Source of the DNA: Ctena decussata
Taxonomy: Eukaryota; Mollusca; Bivalvia; Lucinida; Lucinidae
Assembly: GCA_963989385.1 (NCBI GenBank)
Contig: OZ022503.1
Coordinates: forward strand, 69,290,123 to 69,354,122
Length of the DNA stretch: 64,000 bases
Direction of reading: 5' to 3'
The translations under genes were made by a program, and so were the position numbers. Shown here one piece after another: positions 3,903-62,934 of this stretch. Position 1 is the stretch's first letter, and each line of letters starts with the position of its first letter. The notes beneath the pieces are model-generated. The model was not told the DNA's origin. It saw only the letters and a list, made by a program, of their open reading frames with translations, and did no database searches.

Positions 3903-4143
3903 AAATGAGCCGCGACACGACAAAACCAACAATGTAGTTGTGCGCCAAGTGCAGACTCAGATCAGCCTGGGCATCTGCCAAGACCGATCAAAGTCTTCGC
4001 AGTCCGCATGGAGCTAGCTTAGACCCTAAGCTACCCTCTAAGTTCAAAGGAAAGGATCTGATCAGTGTATGTGGATGCCCAGGCTGATCTGAGTCTGCGC
4101 TGGTGCACAACCACTTTGTTTGTTTTCTCGTGTCGAACTCAAA
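3903..4143. mobile_element. Family A foldback MITE, copy 1
   Basis: Near-complete palindrome. The left end AAATGAGCCGCGACACGACA pairs with the right end, and the inner arms 'CAGACTCAGATCAGCCTGGGC' type and 'GACCGATCAAAGTCTTCGC' type pair across the centre. It is non-coding and about 240 bp. The same architecture is complete at 6930-7168, 30940-31161 and 54167-54406. Confidence 0.85.
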
Positions 4144-7312: not shown

Positions 7313-7444
7313 AATGTTTGTAGCCAATTCTAAAATTGTGACAAAACTTTTGTGTGCATTTGTTGGGACCGTAGATGAAAACCCAGTCTAAAAGTGAACG
7401 GGTAGACGATCAGAGGAAGCAACTGTACCATTTTCTTCATTTTC

Positions 7445-7530
7445 TTTCTTCTCAATAGGGATCGACTGTTAAAAGATAGAATTTGCTCCTGAGCAATTTT
7501 TTTCCTTTAAGAGTAGACCCCATTTTCTAA
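7445..7530. mobile_element. Family B hairpin, decayed
   Basis: TTAAAAGATAGAATTTGCTC and TCCTTTAAGAGTAGACCCC keep the outer arms; the tip is shortened. Confidence 0.6.
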
Positions 7531-8007
7531 GGGGTACGTTGTCCAGTAATGCTACGTTTCTCTTCTCTCGTCTTTCCATAGGATCATTTTAATGAAGCTG
7601 CACAGATTTTCCGATGAAAATAACAAAGAAATCAATTGCTTGATAGACAATGAGTTATTACAGTATGAATATGTTAGACAAAATCTCAGCTTTCAATTTA
7701 AAAGGTGCAAGACGATTCGCACCCTATGTTTCGTACCAATGTAAAATTCCCTTTTAAAAGTAACGTTAGAGTTAAACAGGATATATTACTGTAGCAACTT
7801 GTTAAGCGCCATTCTACATGTATTAGTTTCTAAGTGAAATCTAGTGGAAACTTACTATTGTAAAATAAAGTGGTTCGCTTTTAAAGCAAAAAACTTCTTT
7901 TGTTCAGGTTTTCAGAGTGAATCACTTTTCCACTGCACCATAAAGATAATCCTATGGAGTTACTACAGAGTCGGATGAAGGGAGACTGATCTCGGTACAT
8001 GTAGTAA

Positions 8008-9744: not shown

Positions 9745-9985
9745 TAAGGTGTAGGGGTACACCTCCGTGTTTTTCTGCCATGTTTTCAAAAAAGGGAGAC
9801 AGCTTTTGTGACTGCCTGTTTGCTTCCCTGGATGACTAACGCCTTCAAAATAGGGTCTACTCTTAAAGGATTGAATTTTCTCCTAAAGAATACATGTATC
9901 TCTAAACGAAAAACGACAAAGGTATGCCAACTCATAGCCGGAAAGTTACTTTTTATGAAGATACTCAATGCGGGAAAGTAATTTT
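9745..9985. mobile_element. Family B element, full left arm, decayed right
   Basis: GGGTACACCTCCGTGTTTTT, TTGTGACTGCCTGTTTGCTT and TCTACTCTTAAAGGATTGAA follow the B consensus order seen at 42125-42355. Confidence 0.65.
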
Positions 9986-17324: not shown

Positions 17325-17700
17325 CATTTCTTGTTTCCAAGAAATCTTTCTTTCTTAATTTAAGTAATCAGTCCAAGAGTTTAAGGTGCCTGGATACACA
17401 ATAATGTGAAATAATTCTGCAAATTTTACTCTCGCCTTTCTTCTTAATGGGAGTAAACTCTATAAGAAAAGAATTGGCTACTGTAGGAGAAAAGTGTTTC
17501 CTGTAAGAGTAGACAATTTTTGGAAGGGTTACATCATCTACAGAAGTAAATAGGAAGCATGTACGGAAGTATAACAGATTGTAGTATAACATTGACGTAT
17601 GTCCAATTTACAATTATACAAGTATATTTCCAAAATATACTAGAAGATCATGTGGAAGCAAGAAACACACACGAGAAAGAACATAGCAGACTCGGTTAAT
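17325..17700. mobile_element. Family B insertion in palindrome left arm
   Basis: AAACTCTATAAGAAAAGAAT and TTTCCTGTAAGAGTAGACAA carry the B hairpin arms. On either side, TTTCTTGTTTCC (17329) and GGAAGCAAGAAA (17653) are inverted copies of palindrome sequence, so the insertion sits in a locally rearranged arm. Confidence 0.55.
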
Positions 17701-26741: not shown

Positions 26742-27682
26742 GGCATAGCAATTCATATTACTGATTTCCTTCCTGCGTAGCAAAACATATACTGATTTCG
26801 TTCACACGTAGCCGCTTGAATACTTATACTGATTTCGTTCACACGTAGCAATATATATACTGATTTCATTCCAACGTAGCAATACACATACTGATTTCTT
26901 TCCCACGTAGCAATACATATACTGATTTCGTTCCTACGCAGCATTACATATACTGATTTCGTTCACACGTGGCAATACACATACTGATTTCGTTCCGACG
27001 TAGCTATACATATACTGATTTCGTTCCTACGCAGCATTACATTAACTGATTTCGTTCCCACGTAGCTATACATATACTGATTTCGTTCCAACATAGCAAT
27101 ACATAAACTGACTCCGTTCCCACGTAGCAAAACATATACTGATTTCGTTCCCACGCAGCAGTACATATACTGATTTCATTCCTACGCAGCATTACATATA
27201 CTGGTTTCGTTCCAACGTAGCAATACATATACTGATTTCGTTCCCACGTAGCAATACATATACTGATTTCGTTTCTGCGCAGCATTACATATTCTGATTT
27301 CGTTCACACGTGACAATACACATACTGATTTCGTTTCCACGTAGCTATACATATACTGATTTCGTTTCCACGTAGCAATACATATACTGATTTCGTTCCC
27401 ACGCAGCAATACATATACTGATTTCGTTCCCACGTAGCAATACATAAACTGATTTCGTTCCCACGTAGCAATACATAAACTGAATTCGTTCCCACGTAGC
27501 AATACATATACTGATTTCGTTCCCACGTAGCATTACATAAACTGATTTCATTCCCACGTAGCAATACATATACTGAAACGTTCCCACGCAGCAATACATA
27601 TACTGATTTCGTTCCTACGCAGCATTACATATACTGATTTCGTTCCCACGTAGCAATACATATACTGATTTCGTTCCTACGA
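26742..27682. repeat. 31-bp minisatellite, about 30 copies
   Basis: The unit ACTGATTTCGTTCCCACG then TAGCAATACATAT is repeated with a strict 31-bp period and scattered substitutions. Because 31 is not a multiple of 3, three units form a 93-base frame and several minus-strand frames stay open for up to about 115 codons. These are by-products of a unit lacking stops in those frames, not genes. Confidence 0.95.
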
Positions 27683-35005: not shown

Positions 35006-35014
35006 GTTGTTTAA

Positions 35015-35552
35015 AGGTAGGTTCCTGTACTTTGGAATGCATCAAAATTTTAATGATTTTTCATCCAGATTGTTGGAAAGCACTTATAAAAGGGAATGAA
35101 TAAGTTCCACTAAAAAGTGTAAATAAAAAAATATTAGAAAAGTTGTTTTGCAAGGGGTTTCCTAACTCTGCTTCGCACACCAGTTAGCGCTATTTTTAGT
35201 CCGCGCCAAAAATAGATAACGCAGCTGAGGCCATGCTGCATTGCATTTTGGGATAGTTTTAACCCATCCACCATGCCAGGACCTCTAGGAGAGCTCACGA
35301 CAACGGAAAATTGACCTTTGGAGAATGGCATCAGAAATCGCGCACTTATAGACATAATAAACAGAGTTATTTTTAGAACTGGAATTCCAACGAAAGAAAA
35401 TAAACCTAAAGGAAAGACGACTATTTTCTTCAACATCTGACGAGTTTCTCAGTAGCAACAAATTCAGAAAAATAACAAAATTCAATACTGCTGAGAAAAA
35501 GACGAAATTATTTTGTGGACATACTTGTTATCGCTAGTACAGGAACCTACCT
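35015..35552 (-). mobile_element. Family P TTAA element, copy 1 (538 bp)
   Basis: Terminal inverted repeats AGGTAGGTTCCTGTACT / TAGTACAGGAACCTACCT are flanked by TTAA at 35011-35014 and 35553-35556. Three copies in the window all have TTAA on both sides, consistent with piggyBac-type TTAA targeting, although the ends are not the classical CCC/GGG. A minus-strand frame of 100 codons (MLKKIVVF..., 35134-35436) recurs in all copies, but its copy-to-copy differences change amino acids freely, so I do not call it a gene. Confidence 0.85.
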
Positions 35553-35559
35553 TTAAGTT

Positions 35560-36004: not shown

Positions 36005-36858
36005 TTTTAGAGCCATCATCTGACACTATTGAAGCTTGTTACGATACCAAGCTTTTGCCCTTTTACCTTGATCTCCCTCTGAATGCCATTGGCGCTATTT
36101 GTCATCAGTTTGGTCTTCTCAGCATTGCTTTCCATCTTATACCTTGTGTGGGTTTTGTCGAGACTGTCAACTAGGACTTCTAGTTCGTGTTTTTCCTCAG
36201 CTAGAGCGTCTATATCATCGACACACCGTAGATTGGTAATATTTCTGTCGCCTATGCTAACCTTCCCGTCATGTTCTTCCAGAGCACCAGACATGAGCCG
36301 TTCTAGAAAAAATGATGAAGAGGGTGGGTGACAGAAGACATCCTTGTCTTACTCCAGCTGTTGTTCTGAACCATTTTCCCATGCTGCCATTCATCAGGAC
36401 TGCTCTTGTGGCCTTGTCGTATTGCTGCTCAATGGTGCGAACTAGATTTGCACTGATATTGTACTTCCGCATGGTGGCCCATAAGGCTGCATGCCAGACC
36501 CTGTCTAAAGCTTTTTTAAATCAATGACATGGTTCAGATTTTGCTGATGTTTGAGATGCTTTTCACACAGGATTCTAAGGTTGAAGATCTGTTCTGTGGT
36601 TCTCCTTCCAGCTCTGAACCCAGCCTGTTCAGCTATTATCTCTTCGGGTGGGGTTTTAGCTTGTTCAAGATGACATCCAGCATGACTTTGCTTGAATGTA
36701 TGACGAGGCTGATTGTTCTGTAGTTCTGGCAAAGCTCTAGGTTGCCCTTTGTAGGGAGCGTAATAATCAGCGACTGAGTCCATGGGGTAGGCCATTCATC
36801 TGTTATCCAGACCCGATTACAGATATCTGTTAAAACATCAGTCTCTTGGATCAAAGTT
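36005..36858 (-). pseudogene. Non-LTR retrotransposon RT domain, inverted 5' part
   Basis: Read on the minus strand from 36855 down, the pieces are in reverse-transcriptase order: WPTPWTQSLIITLP, NYRTISL, AEQAGFRAGRRTTEQIFNL, NHVIDLKK, NGSMGKWFRTTAGVRQGCLL SPTLF, then NLRCVDDIDALAEE. The palm motif normally [F/Y]xDD reads C-V-D-D here, so the first residue is changed. At least three frameshifts separate the pieces (near 36660, 36510 and 36290). It abuts the C-terminal part of the same protein on the opposite strand (36862-37325), the arrangement produced by twin-primed integration. The clade is probably RTE-like or jockey-like; I cannot settle which. Confidence 0.85.
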
Positions 36859-40724: not shown

Positions 40725-40995
40725 CATTGATTGATTTGTTGCTTTACGTCCACGGTAAACAGCTATGGTCATGTCGGGACGGTCAGTTACCGTAACCACA
40801 CTATTCCTGGGCAGGCTTAGACCTCCTAAGCGGTTAACCAGTGCTACATGTACACATACTTTCGCCAGTAACTGACAACTGCCCTTCTTGAAGAAGCGGA
40901 AGGAGAAACGAAAGTATGTGGCCAGACCGGGTATCGAACCCAGGACCTCTGACTTATGAGTCAGGTGCCCTACCGATTGCGCTACGCGGCCCGGC
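40725..40995 (-). mobile_element. tRNA-derived SINE, V-tail type, copy 1
   Basis: The 75-nt head at 40921-40995 folds as a cloverleaf: acceptor GCCGGGC/GTCTGGC, A box TAGCGCAATCGG, B box GGTTCGATACC. The anticodon arm CTGAC-TCATAA-GTCAG has a CAT but only a six-base loop, so it is not a functional tRNA-Met. The body carries an inverted ACATACTTTCG pair and the 3' tail CACGGTAAACAGCTATGG / TCAATCAATC (as read on the plus strand, reversed). Same element as 46725-46997. Confidence 0.85.
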
Positions 40996-42121: not shown

Positions 42122-42358
42122 AATGTGTATAGGTACACCGCCATGTTTTCCGCCATTTTTTTCAAAGGGAAACCACTTTTGTGACTTCCTATTGGCGTCT
42201 TTCAGCCACAAAGCCCTTTCGAAAAGGGGGTCGCCTCTTAAAGGAAAGAATTTGCTCCTAGAGGAGCAAATTCTTTCCTATAAGAGTTGACCCGGATTGA
42301 CAAGGGAGGCAAAAATGAAAATAGCAGAGTTGCTTCCCCTGAAAATACACCCATTCAG
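42122..42358. mobile_element. Family B element, reference full-length copy
   Basis: Order: TATAGGTACACCGCCATGTT, GGGAAACCACTTTTGTGACT, TCGCCTCTTAAAGGAAAGAA, tip TCCTAGAGGA, TTCTTTCCTATAAGAGTTGA, GCAGAGTTGCTTCCCCTG, AATACACCCA. The central 56 bases form a nearly perfect hairpin while the outer arms are only partly complementary. No reading frame is conserved among copies. Confidence 0.85.
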
Positions 42359-42359
42359 C

Positions 42360-42848
42360 TTAGTGCGCGCATGTTTAAGGTAAGCACAAATACGCAAACA
42401 GCTTGGAAATAGCAATGTAGCAAACGTTTTTCTTCGCGTGCTTTGTACTGTGTGATCAATCTTTAAAGTCAGTTATGACAAGTATAAAACGGTTTTCATA
42501 GTTTAGACTTCAAAATTGAATGATATAAAGCATAAGCTTGGAAAGATATTAATCGAACTGGTAAATTAAATTTTATTTTATTCGTTTGAACAGAACTTTA
42601 CAGTGAGCTTGTGTGTTTTCTTTATATTTTTTTTCCTTATGAAGTTATTTCTTGTGTTTGTATGTTTTTCCTTATGAAGTTATTTCTTGTGTTTGTAGTG
42701 TGTGTAAGAAGTGGGGTTGGGGGAGGGTGGGGACAGGGAGGCATAAATGTTCAAAATTGTTGAGGCGATGTTATGTGGCGAGTCTGCGCAGGCTGGACTA
42801 GGCATGCACAACCTGCGCCTATACCATAAACAGTCTCGTATTTAACGT
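42360..42848. other. No clear feature
   Basis: A 37-base direct duplication (TTTTCCTTATGAAGTTATTT..., 42629 and 42666) and a family-A-like scrap near 42780-42830. Nothing else. Confidence 0.45.
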
Positions 42849-42853
42849 TTTAA

Positions 42854-43391
42854 AGGTAGGTTCCTGTACTTTGGAATGCATTATAATCTTGATGAACTTT
42901 CATCCAAGTTGTTGGAAAGCACTTATAAAAGGGAATTAATAAGTTTCACTAAAAAGTGTAAATAAAAAAAATATTAGAAAGTTGTTTTGCAAGGGATTTC
43001 CTAACTCTGCTTCGCACACCAGTTAGCGCTATTTTTAGTTCTCGTCAAAAATAGATAATGCAGCTGATGTCATGCTGCATTGCATTTTGGGATAGTTTTA
43101 ACCCATCCGCCCTACCAGGACCTCTAGGAGAGCTCACGTCAAGGGAAAAATGACCTTTGGAGAATGGCATCAGAAATCCCGCACTTATAGACATAATAAA
43201 CATAGTTATTTTTAGAACTGGAATTCCAACAAAGGAAAATAAACCAAAAGGGAAAACGACTATTTTCTTCAACATCTGACGAGTTTATCAGTGGCAACAA
43301 ATTCAGAAAAATAAGAGAATTCAATACTGCTCAGAAAAAGACGAAGCTATTTTGTGGACATAATTGACATCGCTAGCCCAGGAACCTACCT
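42854..43391 (-). mobile_element. Family P TTAA element, copy 2 (538 bp)
   Basis: Same length and orientation as copy 1, about 90% identical by eye, with TTAA at 42850-42853 and 43392-43395. The shared frame is cut to 76 codons. Confidence 0.85.
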
Positions 43392-43518
43392 TTAAGCAAA
43401 AAATGCATCGATGTGCAGCGTTCCCCAACAGTTATCACTAAGACGAAGAAAGATCAAAGTGATGCAGCTGATATAGTAGCAAAAAAAAAACAACTTAAAA
43501 ACAATCGTAAACTTGCCC

Positions 43519-45448: not shown

Positions 45449-45454
45449 CATTAA

Positions 45455-45980
45455 AGGTAGGTTCCTGGACTAGCGATAACAGTCATGTCCACAAAATAAT
45501 TTTGTCTTTTTCTGAGCAGTATTGAATTCTCATATTTTTCTGAATTTGTTGCTACTGAGAAACTCGTCAGATGTTGAAGAAAATAGTCGTTTTCCCTTTT
45601 GGTTTATTTTCCTTTGTTGGAATTCCAGTTCTAAAAATAACTATGTTTATTATGTCTATAAGTGGGCAATTTCTGATGTCATTCTCCAAAAGTCAATTTT
45701 CCCTTGCTGTGAGCTCTCCTAGAGGTCCTGGCATGGCGGATGGGATAAAACTATCCCAAAATGCATTGCAGCATGACGTCAGCCACGTTACTTATTTTTT
45801 GGCGCGAACTAAAAATAGCGCTAACTGGTGTGCGAAGCAGAGTTAGGAAATCCCTTGTAAAACAACTCTTCTAATAATTTTTTGATTTACACTTTTTAGT
45901 GAAACTTATTCATTCCCTTTTATAAGTGCTTTCCAACAACTTGGATATTATGATGCATTCCAAAGTACAGGAACCTACCT
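45455..45980 (+). mobile_element. Family P TTAA element, copy 3 (526 bp)
   Basis: Opposite orientation to copies 1 and 2. TTAA flanks at 45451-45454 and 45981-45984. The shared frame has 91 codons here (45571-45846). Confidence 0.85.
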
Positions 45981-45989
45981 TTAAGTAAA

Positions 45990-46600
45990 GTTAAATTTCT
46001 TATCAATCAAGACCTATTGCCTTACGTTCCACGTACTACAAGATATTAAAATACCAGTATGCATTTTCACCGATGTTGTTAGATGGGGTTGGGTTGGCAT
46101 CTCCTGATTTAAAATGGCTGTCGGCGAAGCAAGCTTTTTGTGAAAGCTTATACTTGTTTATCTTAAAAGTTTCATGTCTGCATAGAATAGCATAATGCAA
46201 TTACTCATATTATAGCATAATGTTGCCTGGCATTTTAGCGCTTAGGGTAATCAAAATTAATGATATTTTTAATTGTTTGCTTTTTTTTTTTCTCCTCAAA
46301 CGAAGGATTCTGTGAGACAGTAATGGTATTTGTGTCACATCTACTTTTTGTTGGTTTGTGCGTAATTTCATTGACACTTCCTTTCCAGTGTCAATTATCT
46401 TCATCAATTGGAAGACGTTAATGTCATCTAAGAAATGTCAAATGTCAGTCAGTCCCCGCGATGGCACTAATGATGAGATGTGGCCTCGCCAGGGAAATTG
46501 TGGGAATTGTGCCTTTTCAAACGGGCATATTACGTATCATGCGGAACTCTGGATAGGGTAGGTCTTTGAGGATAATTATGAGATAGTGTTTCTTATTGCT
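45990..46600. other. No recognisable feature
   Basis: A 67-codon plus frame at 46358-46561 lacks any domain signal. Confidence 0.35.
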
Positions 46601-46724: not shown

Positions 46725-46997
46725 GCCGGGCCGGGTAGCGCAATCGGTAGGGCACCTGACTGAGTCAGAGGTCCTGGGTTCAAATCCCGGTCTGGCCACA
46801 TACTTTCGTTTCTCCTTCCGCTGATTCAAGAAGGGCAGTTGTCAGTTACTGGCGAAAGTATGTGCACTCAGTACTGGTTAACCGCTTAGGAGGTCTAAGC
46901 CTGCCCAGGAATAGTGTGGTTAGGTTAACTGACCGTCCCGACATGACCTTAGTTGTTTACCGTGGACGTTAAGCATCAAATCAACCAACCAACCAAT
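46725..46997 (+). mobile_element. tRNA-derived SINE, V-tail type, copy 2
   Basis: Head 46725-46796: acceptor GCCGGGC/GTCTGGC, A box TAGCGCAATCGG, B box GGTTCAAATCC. The anticodon loop has lost three bases compared with copy 1 (CTGAC-TGA-GTCAG... collapsed). Body and tail match 40725-40995 throughout, ending CCAACCAACCAATCAA. Confidence 0.88.
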
Positions 46998-50319: not shown

Positions 50320-50459
50320 GTTAGCTCTTCAATAAAAGAATGTTCTCCCCCTATGAGGTCAACTCAAAGAAAAGAATTGGCTACCTTATGAGAAAATTCT
50401 TTCCGTTAAGATTAGCCCCCATTTTGCAAGGGCTTCGTCATCCAGGGGATCAAACAAGT
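50320..50459. mobile_element. Family B element, decayed
   Basis: GAGGTCAACTCAAAGAAAAG, ATTCTTTCCGTTAAGATTAG and TCATCCAGGGGATCAAACAA in B order. It is interrupted on the right by a family C element. Confidence 0.6.
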
Positions 50460-53999: not shown

Positions 54000-54165
54000 A
54001 TAACATTACAATTACAACAGTTTAGCCTAAAGAAAACAGCATGAGGGTGATTACATTCTAATAAGGCATCAGCCTGAAATCTTAAACTATACGTAAGCTC
54101 GCCTTTCCCCACCCTTTGCATTAGCTTGCTGCGACATCACACAGCGTTTTTGTCCACAACTTACA
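54000..54165. other. No recognisable feature
   Basis: Spacer between LINE fragment and family A element. Confidence 0.4.
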
Positions 54166-54408
54166 TTTGAGCCGCGACAGGAGAAAACCAACAATGTGGT
54201 TGTGCGCCCAGCGCAGACTCAGATCAGCCTGGGCATCCGCCCAGTTTGACTAGACTCTTCGTTAAGTGCTAAAAGGGTAGATAAGGGTCTAAGCTACCCC
54301 CATGCGGACAGCGAAGACTCTGGTCAGACTGGGCGGATGCCCATGCTGAACTGAGTCTGCGCTGGGCGCACAGCCACTTTGTTGGTTTTCTCGTGTCGCA
54401 GCTCAAAT
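54165..54408. mobile_element. Family A foldback MITE, copy 4 (best complete)
   Basis: ATTTGAGCCGCGAC at the left and GTCGCAGCTCAAAT at the right are complementary. CCAGCGCAGACTCAGATCAG / CTGAACTGAGTCTGCGCTGG and GGGCATCCGCCCAG / CTGGGCGGATGCCC also pair, giving about 100 base pairs per arm. Centre near 54280. Confidence 0.9.
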
Positions 54409-54744: not shown

Positions 54745-54922
54745 GCCTCCCTTAGCGGGACACCCAATTGCCTCAAAGGTGAATGGGTACACTTTCAGGG
54801 GAAGCAATCCTGCTATTTTCATTTGAGCGTATCTTCTAAATTGGGATCAACTCTTAAAGAAAAGAATTTGCTCCTTTTGGAGCAAATTCTTTCCATTAAT
54901 AGTAGACCCCTTTTTGAAAGGA
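54745..54922. mobile_element. Family B foldback element
   Basis: GAATGGGTACACTTTCAGGG, GGGATCAACTCTTAAAGAAA and ATTCTTTCCATTAATAGTAG with tip CTCCTTTTGGAG. Confidence 0.8.
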
Positions 54923-54982
54923 CTAATTAAAATCTTAAAAAGTTCCTTCAAGAGTAGAGAATACATACAGAAGTAGGAACTT

Positions 54983-55028
54983 GGGCCAGACTACGTAGTT
55001 TCGGCTAATAAAGCCTCGTCAGTGACCC
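54983..55028 (-). ncRNA. Hammerhead ribozyme, type I, apparently intact
   Basis: Minus-strand reading: stem I GGGTCA, core CTGACGA (the invariant CUGANGA), stem II GGCT-TTATT-AGCC, core GAAA, short stem III CT-ACGT-AG, then TC with cleavage expected after this C (54989), followed by TGGCCC. TGGCCC pairs back to GGGTCA over six pairs (one G-U). Every conserved core residue is present, including the A15.1-U16.1 closing pair and H17 = C. Very short stem III is typical of retrozyme and Penelope hammerheads, which often act as dimers. Confidence 0.85.
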
Positions 55029-55042
55029 TGACAATATCTGGT

Positions 55043-55304
55043 GACGAAACCAGAAAAAAAGCATACTGTAATTTCTTAATTTTAATTAGGCTGTCGATTC
55101 AAAGACTGATTACTTTCAAAAGGATCCAAATAATATAAAAGACGATGATCTAGAATAATAGCCTAAATCGATCTCAAATTTTAGATTTCTCAGAATCTAT
55201 CCTCTGATCTCAAAGGATGTAGATAAAATATAATCTGCACTATGGATGATGTACGGGGAGACGTTTTACGGCCGCCACACGGCACAACACCAGCTGCAGT
55301 GAGG
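55043..55304. other. Interior between retrozyme repeats
   Basis: Non-coding. It begins with a small hairpin TCTGG-TGACGAAA-CCAGA and ends with a GC-rich stretch (GGGGAGACGTTTTACGGCCG, 55256-55275). No tRNA-primer site was recognised. Confidence 0.5.
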
Positions 55305-55365
55305 TAAAATTAAAATCTTAAGAAGGTCCTTCAAGAGCAGAGAATACATACAGAGGTAGGAACAT

Positions 55366-55411
55366 GGGCCAGACTACGTAGTTTCGGCTAAGAAAGCCTC
55401 GTCAATGACCC
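55366..55411 (-). ncRNA. Hammerhead ribozyme, second copy, core mutated
   Basis: Same fold as 54983-55028: stem II GGCT-TTCTT-AGCC, GAAA, CTACGTAG, TC, TGGCCC. The core reads TTGACGA, so invariant C3 is U; C3 normally pairs with G8, and its loss should abolish or strongly reduce self-cleavage. Stem I and stem II remain paired. Confidence 0.8.
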
Positions 55412-55564
55412 TGACAATTTTAAAATGATAGTGCTAAGCTACGGGTGATTTAAATAATGAGGTTCTTGAACTTGCATAATTGTATATTTTCTTATGATGC
55501 ATGAAATAAAGTACATGATACTTGGCGATCTGGGTAATTTCATTAAAGCGAGCGTTAGTGGGCT

Positions 55565-55720
55565 GTTAAGACTTGAGGGATGAAGGACTGGCGATTTTTT
55601 TTAACAGTATTTCAGTCTAAATCAGGACGATGTGGGATGGGGGTGGGGGGATCGAGGGGAATGGCGTTGATAATGAAAGGCTGTGTGCAATGGAATCCTG
55701 TTATGATTTCCACAAATAAT
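55565..55720 (-). mobile_element. SINE family 1 body, head missing
   Basis: TTTAACAGTATTTCAGTCTA, ATCAGGACGATGTGGGATGG and AATGAAAGGCTGTGTGCAAT match the 3' half of the family. Confidence 0.55.
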
Positions 55721-55929
55721 TTAGAATACTTGTGGATTAGTGTATTTAATTTCTTATGTATCTAAGATGAAACTGTTGGACGATTAAAGCAGGGGCACAC
55801 TACTCCAGCTCGCGTCAAGTGGCGTTACGTGACATCGACGTTATTTTCGTATATTTGCCAGTTGATAATGTAGCACGTTCGTAGTATGTTAGCCCATTCC
55901 ATTCGGGATATCCCTTTAGGGGTATCTGG

Positions 55930-55996
55930 GCAAACAGTTTGGATCCAGATCAGGCCCCACAAACGTAGGGCCTGATCTGAGATCCAAACTGTTTGC
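55930..55996. repeat. Family C core hairpin, copy 4
   Basis: GCAAACAGTTTGGATCCAGA / TCTGAGATCCAAACTGTTTGC, tip CAGGCCC / GGGCCTG. The tip sequence is unlike the other copies but still fully paired. Confidence 0.85.
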
Positions 55997-56483
55997 TGCC
56001 TAGACGTCATTTCTACAAGAGTTGGTTAGACCAACATTGTCAAAAATATTCTTGATTTTTTATGCAGACGACAATTTCAGCAGAAAGACAAAAAATACCC
56101 AGGATGCAATGGGTTAGAATGGCTTGATATTTGCGTGATATGTCATATTGGACAGATTTACTGTTGTTTCATTTTTTGTCGCACTTGCTTTTGCAAGGTG
56201 TAAATTTGGCATCTAATTTTCCTTCTGTCTAGCTGTCTGTCCGTCATTCCATCCGTCCGTCCGTTTACAGTTGCGTGGCTGGATCCCAGAATTTAAGTCC
56301 AGGCATAATCTGTTGACCGTAACTAGTACTTAAGAACTTTTCTCCCAAACGGTAATGGCCACTGTCATCAAACCTGGTTGAGGATGGTCTTCTGGGATGC
56401 TGGTGTACTTTATACCCTTAACCCATATTTTACGCGACCTCACGATTGCTTCAGGATAATTCAGTTCTGTACTACCATGGAAA

Positions 56484-56959
56484 GGCATATACTAAAACAT
56501 GGTGTAGTGTCAACTGTTGGAGTGGAGCATTGGAGCGGAGTGATTTTTTTTATTGAAGTGGCTTTTTGGAGTCAGGTTATAAGAAGATGATGAGCTCTCT
56601 GTGACTCTGCAGCTATAGGAATCAAAACCAGATCTACAGCTGCTCATTAATAAAATTAATGTCAGTAACAAGCCATCCACTTTGGGGAACCAGTAATTCA
56701 ACATTATGGCCATGTGAATTATCAGCAGCATAGAGCCTTGTCAGTTTGAAATAGGCCCCTTGGGATACGATAATGAATCTTGTCTAACTCGAACCAAATG
56801 AAATTGTACCTTCTGACTGTTGGACAGATACCCTGCCGGGTCCCCCCCCCCTCCACCAAAAAAAAAAAAAAAAAAAAAAAAAAAAGAAAAGAAAAAGAAA
56901 AACTCCACTCCGAGGCTCCACTCCAAAGGTTGACTACACTCCATGTTTCAGTATATGCC
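56484..56959. mobile_element. Inverted-repeat segment with 58-bp arms
   Basis: GGCATATACTAAAACATGGT ... TTGGAGTGGAGCATTGG pairs with CCGAGGCTCCACTCCAA ... CCATGTTTCAGTATATGCC. The interior holds a C/A homopolymer tract. Confidence 0.7.
56844..56902. repeat. Poly-C then poly-A tract
   Basis: C run with one T, then a long A run with G interruptions. Confidence 0.9.
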
Positions 56960-58045
56960 CCCATAGAAGCGCGATGCTGTTGAGACATACGGTTCTGCGT
57001 TATTGTTAGTTTTTTTTTTCTTTCTTCGTTTCGTTGATTTGTTTTGTTTGTTTTCGATAATTTAGTGTCAAGCAATTCATTATACTATAAAAGAATCATT
57101 TAGAAACGATAGAAGAACAAAAAGGAATGAATTTTGAATAAAATGATAATGAAAAGACATTTTTTCCTGCACGACTACCATGTTAAAATCGGTTTTTGAT
57201 TTTCTAATGCAGTTTTGAAGTTTTCTTGAACGGACATTATCTCTAACAAAACCTGCCTACAAACAACGACACATTGACCCCATCCTAACCTTCTGGCAGC
57301 ATGTCATTTGCATAAATTTAGAAATGTTATCACTAAATCGCTCCTTTTGTATTTGGTATGTAACGTGACCAACTTTATAGTCAAATACTAATTGAACGTT
57401 AATAAATGTGCTAAATCACATTGATACGTTAAAGATAACGTCCATCAGACTGTTGATCTCACAAATTAGCTTCGTCATCAGACAACGTGCCTTACACGGG
57501 GGCCCAGGGCGGCTGCTGAGCAATCCGGATCTCCGCTCTTTGTTTCTGAGAGATTCCATGAGATCGGCATATTATGCCTGCCAAAAGTGAAGTTACGAAA
57601 TTAAACTGCAGGCTGCAGAAGCAGATAGGTTTATGGTGTACTCTGAGCCTTTGTATTCCCGTACAGCGGAAGGTTCCAATTATCGTAATACAACGAGAAT
57701 CGTCAATTCTAATTTCCGTCGAAGTAAGGTATTTACCTTGTCAGAAAGTAACGTTATTTCTTAAGTTTGGGAAGTAACCGTCATTTCTTAAACTTTTTGA
57801 ATTATCAGTAGAACGGTAACTATGCTGAAAACTGAACTTTTATTTTTCGTAAGCACCCGCTGAGGAATAAAATTTCATTAATTTTTGTTCCTTCTTCCGA
57901 CTTCCGTCCTTTTTAACGCGGTAATACCGTATTGCTTATCGTACTTTGACTCTTTAAAGCTAAAGTTGATTCTTTGACAATACCGTCAACGTAGCATCAC
58001 GTATGAATACACGTTCAAACCTGACGCTGTCTTTTCTGGTGCGAC
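56960..58045. other. No recognisable feature
   Basis: Short frames at 57408 and 57574 show no family signal. Confidence 0.4.
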
Positions 58046-58049
58046 ATGT

Positions 58050-59156
58050 AAGGGAATTGACATTCATACTGCAACAATTAAAATCGACACATTCCGTGAC
58101 AACTCGAAAGTCATGCTGTTATACTTAATACAACCGAATGCAGCCGCTGGTTATTAAAAATATCATCAATCAAAGCTAGTTACTGGTAATGTGTGTTTTT
58201 GATTTTCTATTATAAGAATTGTCGTAAAGTTATAAATATTTAATTTGGAACTACAAGACGGCTATCCATTCTCTTTTAATTATAAAACTCTATAAGACTG
58301 GTATGCGGAGAGAATAAGAAATAACGAATGATTTATTTTAAGTATAAGACAATTCAGTAGATTAATATTCATTCCCCATTTATTTTTTGTGTAACTTTAT
58401 TATATGTTTCGTAAATGGAAGCGTTTATGTAAGTGCATGAGTCTGTATTCTTCTCTGAGTTATTCCTTTTGTCGAGTAAAATTGATTTAGTAAATTCTAA
58501 GATCTTTAGGTATTTTTCTCGGCGCAGCCGAGGTTTTTTTCACTTTTGTTCCACATATCACAAGATTTCATTGGTCAAATAACGCGTATATCAAAATTTA
58601 GCCAGTAATATCAAAGGCCAACGAACATTTAATCTTCGTTTTCTTTCCGTTGTACTGCACTGCCTGAATACTAGCACTCTGTCACATGTTAATTCAAAAT
58701 GTTTCGTTTGTTTGTACTGGAAACAGACGCGATATTCAAAAGTTTCTTTTAACAGTGTAGATCTACTATCGATTTCTACTTTCGGTTTAATACACACAAA
58801 CAAACATTGCATCATTTTGGTAACTTTTTTGGGAATCAGGTCAATCTCAAGATTGGATTTTGGAATTACAGATTGGACAGCTCAGTCTTGAGATAGGTCA
58901 TTGTCGCTACCCATTGTCAAAATTACGGTTGCGGGTGCCTACCGACATAGTTCACTTGAATCATATTTATAAAAGTTATTGTAAACTCTTCACCTAGAGA
59001 CATTTTACAAAACACACTTCTCTTTTTTAAACTCACCTGAGCCAGCGGCTCCGGTGGAGCTTATGGGATGGTAAGGCTCCGTCGTCCGCCGTACGTCGCC
59101 CGTCCGTCCGTCCGTCAACATTTTCAAACGACTTCTCCTCTGAAACCGCTGGGCCG
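58050..59156. repeat. 1.1 kb duplicated block, copy 1
   Basis: From AGGGAATTGACATTCATACT to GAAACCGCTGGGCCG it is collinear with 61819-62934, about 93-95% identical with small indels. It includes the CTCGGCGCAGCCGAG palindrome (58518-58532) and ends with the CTCACCTGAGC repeat start. Predicted minus-strand frames in the two copies are not kept in register. Could be a real local duplication or an uncollapsed haplotype beside the gap. Confidence 0.85.
59030..59156. repeat. CTCACCTGAGC repeat start
   Basis: CTCACCTGAGCCAGCGGCTC, (CCGT)n run, CATTTTCAAACGACTTCTCC. Same order at 62815. Confidence 0.8.
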
Positions 59157-60519: not shown

Positions 60520-60557
<38 letters not shown>

Positions 60558-60820
60558 CAGAAATGGTCGGTCCCTTAGATGACAATTTCTTGTACCCAAT
60601 TTCTTGTACCCAATTTCTTGTATGCGCGATATCTCTTGAACCCCCCCCCCCCCTCCCAGAAATGGTCGGTCCCTTAGATGACAATTTCTTGTACCCAATT
60701 TCTTGTATGCGCGATATCTCTTGAACCCCCCCCCCCCCCCCCCCCCCCCCCCCAGAAATGGTCGGTCCCTTAGATGACAATTTCTTGTACCCAATTTCTT
60801 GTATGCGCGATATCTCTTGA
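60520..60820. repeat. Three poly-C-separated tandem units
   Basis: CAGAAATGGTCGGTCCCTTA, GATGACAATTTCTTGTACCC and GCGCGATATCTCTTGAACC occur three times, joined by C runs of varying length (up to 36). Gly/Pro-rich frames on both strands are artefacts. Confidence 0.92.
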
Positions 60821-61760
60821 ACCAATGGATGGGATTTCACCAAACTTTCATGGATATATCATTGGGACAAGTGTAAGAGCTGATTAGATTTTGTTGACCT
60901 TGACCTCATTTTGAAGGTCACTGGAGGACTTAGATGACAATTTCTTGTACCCACTACATCTCCTGAACCAATGGATGGAATTTCACAAAACTTGCATGGA
61001 TACATTATTGGGACAAGTTTTTGAGCTGATTAGATTTTGGTAACCTTGACCTCATTTTCAAGGTCACTGGAGGACTTGGATGACAATTTCTTGTACCCAC
61101 TATATCTCCTGAACCAATGGATGGAATTTCACCAAACTTTCCTGGATACATGATTGGGACAAGTTTATGAGCTGTTTAGATTTTGGTGACCTTGACTTTA
61201 TTTTAAAGGTCACTGGAGGACTTACTTGGCAATTTCTTGTACCCACAATATCTCCTGAACCAATGCATGGAATTCCGCCAAACTTTCGTGGATACATGAT
61301 TTGGACAAGTTTAAGAGCTGAACAAAATTTTGGTGACCGTGACCTCATTTTCAAGGTCACAGGAGGATTTAGATATGTGAAAATTTTCACTAAATTGATG
61401 TATCTCTTTAGCCTTTGGCTTGATTTCCACTTTACTTTCATAGATATACCTATGGGACAGTGTAGAGTGTACTGTGTTTTGATGACCTCGACCCCATTTT
61501 CAAGGTCAAAAGCTATCTTACAAATGTGTTTTTTTCTCTTAAAAATGAGATATCTTGAACCAGTGGATGGATATTCATCTGACTTACATGAATGTATCGT
61601 TGTGACAGTTTTAAGACATGTGTAGTAGTTGGTGACCTAGACCCATTTTTGAAGGACATTGTCTTCTATGTAGGATATCTTTAGAACCAGCGGATGGATT
61701 TTGTCCAAACTTGCATAGATATTTTATTTGTACAGGCTTTTTATTCATTAGAGGGGATGG
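60821..61760. repeat. 146-bp satellite-like array
   Basis: Unit starts ACCAATGGATGGAATTTCAC at 60821, 60967, 61113 and 61259 (146 bp apart), then diverged units at about 61405, 61559 and 61686. Each holds GACCTTGACCTCATTTT, CAAGGTCACTGGAGGA and TTTCTTGTACCCAC. The poly-C units upstream are truncated versions of the same unit. Confidence 0.93.
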
Positions 61761-61818
61761 GAAATGGGCTGGTGGAGGGACATCAGTTATTCTCTGAAAA
61801 ACATTTCTAGATGCAGCA

Positions 61819-62934
61819 AGGGAACTGATATTCTTACTGCAACAATTAAAATCGACACATTCCGTGACAACTCGAAAGTCATGCTGTTATAGTTAATACA
61901 ACCGAATGCAGCCGCTGGTTATTAAATATCATCAATCAAAAGCTAGTTACTGGTCATGTGTGTTTTTGATTTTCTATTATAAGACTTGTCGCAAAGATAT
62001 AAATATTTAATTTTGAACTACAAGACGGCTATCCATTCTCTTTTAATTATAAAACTCTATAAGACCGGTATGCGGAGAGAATAACAAATAACGAATGCTT
62101 TATTTTAAGTATAAGACAATTTAGTAGATTAATATTCATTCATCTTTTTCTTTTTTTTTTTGTGTGTAATTTTACAAATATATGTTTCATAAATGGAAGC
62201 GTTTGTGTAAGTGCACGAGTCTGTCTTCGCTTTTGAGTTATTCCCTTTGTCGAGTAAAATTGATTTAATAAATTCTAAGATCTTTGGGTATTTTTCTCGG
62301 CGCAGCCGAGTATAATTTCGCTTTTGTTCCACATTTCACAAAATTTAATTGGTCAAATAACGCGTATATCAAAATTAGCCAGTAATATCAAAGGCCAATG
62401 AATATTTAATCTTCGTGTTTTTTTTGTTGTTGTTGTTTGTGTTTTTTTCCCCGTTGTACTGCACGGCGTGAATACTAGCACTCTGTCAGATGTTAATTCA
62501 AAATGTTTCGCTTGTTTGTACTGAAAACAGACGCAGATATTCAAAACTTTCTTTTATCCGTGTAGATCTACTTTCGATTTCTACTTTCGGTTTAATGCAC
62601 ACAAACAAACATTGCATCATATTGGTAACTTTTTTGGAATCATTGGATTTTGGAATTCCAGATTGGGCAGCTCAGTCTTGAGATAGGTCATTGTCGCTAC
62701 CCATTGTCAAAATTACGGTTGCGGATGCCTACCGACATAGCTCACTTGAGTCATATTTATTAAAGTTGTTGTAAACTCTTCACCTAGAGACATTTTACAA
62801 AACACACTTCTCTTTTTTAGCTCACCTGAGCCAGCGGCTCCGGGGGAGCTTATAGGATGGTAAGGCTCCGTCGTACGTCGTCCGTCCGTCCGTCAACATT
62901 TTCAAACGACTTCTTCTCTGAAACCGCTGGGCCG
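61819..62934. repeat. 1.1 kb duplicated block, copy 2
   Basis: Collinear with 58050-59156; the main differences are a longer T tract (62150-62161) and a GTTGTTGTTGTTTG insertion near 62425. It continues directly into the tandem array. Confidence 0.85.

Follow-up and report, generated by a model that had tools for sequence, protein, structure and literature searches.

A putative degenerate retrozyme with paired type I hammerhead motifs in the bivalve Ctena decussata

The repeat pair and its genomic surroundings

The window analysed here, a 64,000-nt stretch of the Ctena decussata genome containing 200 N, was compared with itself, which identified a pair of direct repeats of 111 bp with a start-to-start spacing of 383 bp (E-value 8e-45). 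Repeat copy A (54925-55035) and copy B (55308-55418) are 94% identical, differing at 7/111 positions (Jukes-Cantor distance 0.066), and are separated by a single-copy interior of 272 bp (55036-55307). The element is read on the minus strand, where copy B is the 5' and copy A the 3' copy, giving the order repeat B, unique stretch, repeat A over 494 bp (55418-54925). A preliminary description of this DNA had the 383-bp spacing right, with the repeats given as 110 bp long and placed in a span (54926-55425) which starts one base inside and ends seven bases beyond them. The period of 383 bp falls in the range of retrozyme units carrying one hammerhead each (~150-450 bp), but only 1.3 units are present at this single locus, and no additional copy of the 383-bp unit was found elsewhere in the 64-kb window.

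Pfam searches of all six frames between 50.2 and 60.2 kb, a region which includes the assembly gap near 59.2 kb, gave no matches in either the interior or the flanking DNA, in agreement with the earlier statement that no protein is present. The scan of the remaining frames between 10.2 and 50.2 kb had as its sole match a broken reverse transcriptase at approximately 36055-36520 (minus strand), spread over two frames which each score below the cut-off, and its detection shows that the method can find such domains. This RVT_1 fragment, which we take to be LINE-like, is located 18 kb from the hammerhead element, to which it does not belong; one 110-aa piece of it has 2048 relatives at an E-value of 0.001 or better. 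With regard to a Pol III internal promoter, neither strand of the 494-bp element gave a B-box match, and A-box-like strings only were seen. Relatives were found neither in viral_contigs (three patterns) nor in genome_contigs (one pattern), viral and prokaryote collections which are little informative in this case, and literal strings of the present hammerhead gave no match in a text search of the literature.

On its 3' side the element is abutted by a copy of a dispersed hairpin-forming repeat (54775-54924), which stops there. Further copies of this hairpin repeat are located at about 42212-42361, 2640-2770, 7390-7532, 17383-17527, 50359-50434 and 9844-9888. In 5/7 of the other copies compared, the shared sequence extends 14-30 nt beyond the start of the putative retrozyme; the copy at 42 kb shares 5 nt directly past this point with matching resumed further on, and the copy at 40 kb shares nothing there. 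The copies which continue past this point support a boundary at 54924/54925. The missing remainder of the hairpin repeat was not found in 55401-57000 on the other side of the element, so the data do not show a simple insertion flanked by a clean duplication; it is possible that target sequence was deleted, or that the hairpin repeat was already truncated before the insertion. No convincing target-site duplication was found at the element ends, nor was a 4-bp duplication established. The heptamer TTAAAAT, present inside repeat A (54927-54933) and again at 55420-55426, is a weak candidate, as a match of at least seven bases occurred 54 times among 2000 random 26-mer pairs. Where target-site duplications are described in the retrozyme papers, those reported are long (15 bp in Nematostella).

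Several other repeats are present in the window. A tRNA-headed SINE-like repeat is found in two 91%-identical copies (46725-46988 on the plus strand and 40727-40995 on the minus strand); the heads of this repeat score as tRNA in Rfam, and ARAGORN predicted no tRNAs in the window. A 97-bp inverted repeat with 91% complementarity is located at 54165-54408, with related copies near 3906, 6927, 10797, 28682 and 30957. The window also contains a satellite-like array in which a 31-bp unit is repeated 30 times (26746-27681), minisatellites of 96 and 146 bp with long C runs (60531-61374), a duplicate of ~1.1 kb in the same orientation with 88% identity (58050-59156 and 61818-62934), and a repeat of ~550 bp present three times (35010-35557, 42840-43396 and 45451-45996) with about 90-92% identity.

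Hammerhead motifs and their predicted folding

Both repeats contain the layout of a type I hammerhead on the minus strand, as the preliminary description had stated, but only one of the two has the full conserved core attributed to both. The hammerhead of copy A (54983-55028) was recognised by a descriptor match, folding and sub-threshold Rfam scores, and consists of stem I (GGGTCA/TGGCCC, six pairs including one G.U), the core CTGACGA, stem II (GGCT/AGCC) with a 5-nt loop, GAA, and stem III with the loop ACGT, with cleavage predicted after the C at 54989/54988. The six pairs of stem I, the four pairs of stem II and this cleavage position are as described earlier, as a predicted layout, and stem III has the two pairs reported or three if A15.1-U16.1 is counted. 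The hammerhead of copy B (55366-55411) has an equal layout with the homologous cleavage position at 55372/55371, but its core reads TTGACGA (C3 to U at 55405). In the active hammerhead structure C3 pairs with G8, and since this C3 is a U in copy B, its sequence suggests that copy B on its own is probably poorly active. A figure legend in PMC11167929 has C3 and G8 boxed in the core, and gives G8C and C3G as hammerhead mutants. As 2/7 of the differences between copies A and B fall in the 46-nt hammerhead, there is no sign of special preservation of the ribozyme since insertion. A reading as type III hammerhead was rejected: despite the type III model being the best Rfam match in copy A, the alignment shows several non-standard pairs, and UUGUC is separated from the core by only seven bases, which leaves no room for a hairpin in stem I.

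Chance occurrence was assessed with a descriptor requiring six pairs in stem I, the core CUGANGA, a stem II of four pairs, GAA and a stem III closed by A-U. This matched one site in the 64-kb window with the strict core and two with C3 left free, and neither version had a match on either strand of 150 simulated 64-kb sequences (first-order Markov), figures which give the rarity of the pattern and not a blind discovery rate, as the descriptor was built on this very motif. The preliminary description had named the lack of a covariance-model hit as evidence that would speak against its claim, and at the gathering thresholds of Rfam no support was obtained: none of the Rfam hammerhead models reached its gathering score in the window, where the two gathering-level matches are both tRNA. 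In a stretch of 1001 bases, Hammerhead_3 scored 20.0 bits (gathering score 48.5) with an E-value of 0.24, ranking below families which are surely there by chance, one of them at an E-value of 0.0017. When restricted to the 76 bases around copy A, Hammerhead_3 scored 20.0 bits with an E-value of 0.018, and RAGATH-1-hammerhead 18.1 bits with an E-value of 0.29; around copy B only RAGATH-1-hammerhead was obtained (16.1 bits, E-value 0.8, gathering score 56.3). Taken for this element alone, the scores count moderately against the ribozyme claim.

The stem and loop III of copy A (ACTACGTAGT, 54990-54999, minus strand), which reads ACUACGUAGU as RNA, form a perfect 10-nt palindrome which is identical in copy B (55373-55382). 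In a single hammerhead it would give three pairs and a four-base loop, but between the two copies it could form a dimeric stem III of ten pairs. Several hammerheads with palindromic stem III and a 10-bp dimeric stem are described in PMC3088659, and according to section 15 of PMC7229834 cleavage by the axolotl hammerheads is poor in the monomer and good in the dimer. For the 494-nt transcript, the ensemble free energy was -133.5 kcal/mol with a nested double hammerhead versus -124.3 kcal/mol with two single hammerheads (a difference of ~9 kcal/mol), -128.4 kcal/mol with hammerhead A alone and -137.3 kcal/mol without constraints, which places the double hammerhead 3.8 kcal/mol above the free ensemble. 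Single hammerhead A lies above the free ensemble by 5.0 kcal/mol in the 111-nt repeat and by 3.7 kcal/mol in the 46-nt motif. The double form is thus favoured over the singles, yet neither is the predicted ground state in nearest-neighbour folding, which gives no credit to the non-standard hammerhead core.

Judged from the connectivity of the double fold, each core would work on the site of the other copy, so site B would be the one cut by the intact core A. By extension, both cuts may be made by the single intact core, with stems I and III swapping partners so that core A first cuts site B and afterwards, folded as a single hammerhead, the site of its own copy; we regard this as rather unlikely. 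If true, the 383-nt unit could still be released from a half-dead locus, retrozymes would tolerate losing one of their two cores, and apparently dead genomic copies could continue to supply the RNA pool. Because one of its hammerheads is intact and the other mutated, the locus is a clean test case for the release of unit-length RNA via dimeric cleavage.

Folding also predicted an alternative hairpin (TTGTCAG/CTGACGA, 55016-55034, minus strand) which would sequester the core of copy A: the UUGUCAG directly 5' of stem I pairs with the core CUGACGA in the free folds of both repeat A and the 383-nt circle. Section 17 of PMC7229834 describes circles of plant retrozymes and viroids with blocked ribozymes, and most animal circles as keeping the ribozyme free, with the exception of some mussel circles. 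The unit between the two predicted cleavage positions (54989-55371, minus strand, 38% GC) would be the circular RNA, and its length agrees with the circle of about 383 nt proposed in the preliminary description; a functional circle from this locus is nevertheless doubtful, because C3 of copy B is mutated. The predicted circle, folded from one decayed copy, has 55% of its bases paired compared with 60% in 100 shuffles (MFE z-score -1.9), and putative animal retrozyme RNAs are given as >70% paired in PMC4918200. This modelled pairing, from a single decayed copy, speaks against a typical, highly self-paired retrozyme RNA.

Origin of the element and rival explanations

Taken together, the element is likely to represent a metazoan-type non-LTR retrozyme, i.e. 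a non-autonomous, ribozyme-bearing retroelement, in the form of a degenerate copy in the genome. This reading is backed by the repeats at a period of 383 bp, the rarity of the descriptor, the lack of Pfam domains nearby, the GC content of 38% and the double-hammerhead energies, and is weakened by the absence of an Rfam gathering score, the C3 mutation in copy B, the single locus in the window, the presence of only 1.3 units, the competing folds, the low pairing of the circle and the lack of a convincing target-site duplication. In its likeliest history, a circular RNA of ~383 nt was reverse transcribed to give the now degenerate 1.3-unit copy. An oligomeric minus-strand transcript would be cut by its own type I hammerheads, and the 383-nt monomer would be circularised by an RNA ligase of the host, after which a reverse transcriptase supplied by an autonomous element would copy the circle for slightly over one round into a new site. 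If the enzyme ran slightly over once round a circular template, the expected product would be one unit plus an overlap, which here would be the 111 bp; tandem cDNA copies from a circle have been proposed in section 17 of PMC7229834. The palindromic stem III would promote cleavage of an RNA that holds two copies and hinder it in a circle with one. The 1.3 units possibly originated instead from a longer tandem which was later cut down.

The preliminary description had called the layout the definition of a retrozyme, and retrozyme is still the best reading of the element, but that wording is too strong, because Penelope-like elements (PLEs) also carry paired hammerhead repeats (PMC7761336, PMC11167929) and because tandem repeats are the arrangement described for animal retrozymes. 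A PLE remnant, in which the 111-bp repeats would be pseudo-LTRs with hammerheads and the coding middle was lost, is in keeping with the paired-repeat layout, with the tandem hammerhead-bearing pseudo-LTRs described in these two papers, and with the AT-rich junction of the element, as a preference for AT-rich targets is reported in PMC11167929. We nevertheless consider it improbable, since the PLE hammerheads are minimal variants, usually without the non-conserved helix III nucleotides according to PMC7761336, compared with two to three pairs and a tetraloop here; a scan for such minimal variants found none in the window and none in 100 simulations, and neither reverse transcriptase nor GIY-YIG domains are present between the repeats, the interior being 272 bp and Pfam matches being absent between 50.2 and 60.2 kb.

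The order of repeat, non-coding interior and repeat would also be expected of a plant-type LTR retrozyme or a TRIM (miniature LTR element) with LTRs of 111 bp. However, inspection by eye revealed no clear TG...CA ends, no PBS directly after copy B and no PPT before copy A, and with a type I instead of a type III hammerhead and no 4-bp duplication established at the ends, this origin is extremely improbable. Finally, an ordinary duplicated non-coding segment could resemble hammerheads by chance without any ribozyme ancestry, which would be in line with the missing gathering-level Rfam match, the chance families with equal scores and the more stable alternative folds. This is highly improbable in view of the 150 simulated windows without a match even with C3 free, and of the agreement of the palindromic stem III and the period with published retrozymes.

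Comparison with known ribozyme-bearing elements

The plant LTR retrozymes share with the element the arrangement of hammerhead-bearing repeats flanking a non-coding middle, but as described in PMC4918200 they have type III hammerheads, direct repeats of 300-400 bp, a PBS and PPT, and 4-bp duplications, features not seen here. The pseudo-LTRs of PLEs (PMC11167929, PMC7761336) likewise have type I hammerheads in paired repeats, and differ from the element in that here helix III is present and no Pfam match to reverse transcriptase or GIY-YIG was found within 4.7 kb.

As in the mussel-type metazoan non-LTR retrozymes described by Cervera and de la Pena (2020; PMC7229834), the hammerhead is of type I with a short helix III and tetraloop, the DNA is non-coding and low in GC, and the period lies within the 350-390 bp given for the mussel repeats, the one feature that speaks for the earlier label 'bivalve-type'. 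This likeness is one of layout features, and the element differs from the mussel-type retrozymes in having 1.3 units instead of a longer tandem, one mutated core and a weakly self-paired unit RNA. The hammerheads of the newt and axolotl satellites or retrozymes (PMC7229834, section 15) are similar in their short helix III with palindromic tetraloop, in the expectation that the dimer is the best form, and in their period of 330-350 bp. With two pairs and a tetraloop, helix III of the Ctena element resembles the stronger axolotl class; the amphibian hammerheads also have loop 1-loop 2 contacts. Judged by sequence features, animal non-LTR retrozymes are a closer match for the element than are Penelope-like or LTR elements, and the element would add one, probably decayed, example to a class of ribozyme-bearing retroelements already described in animals.
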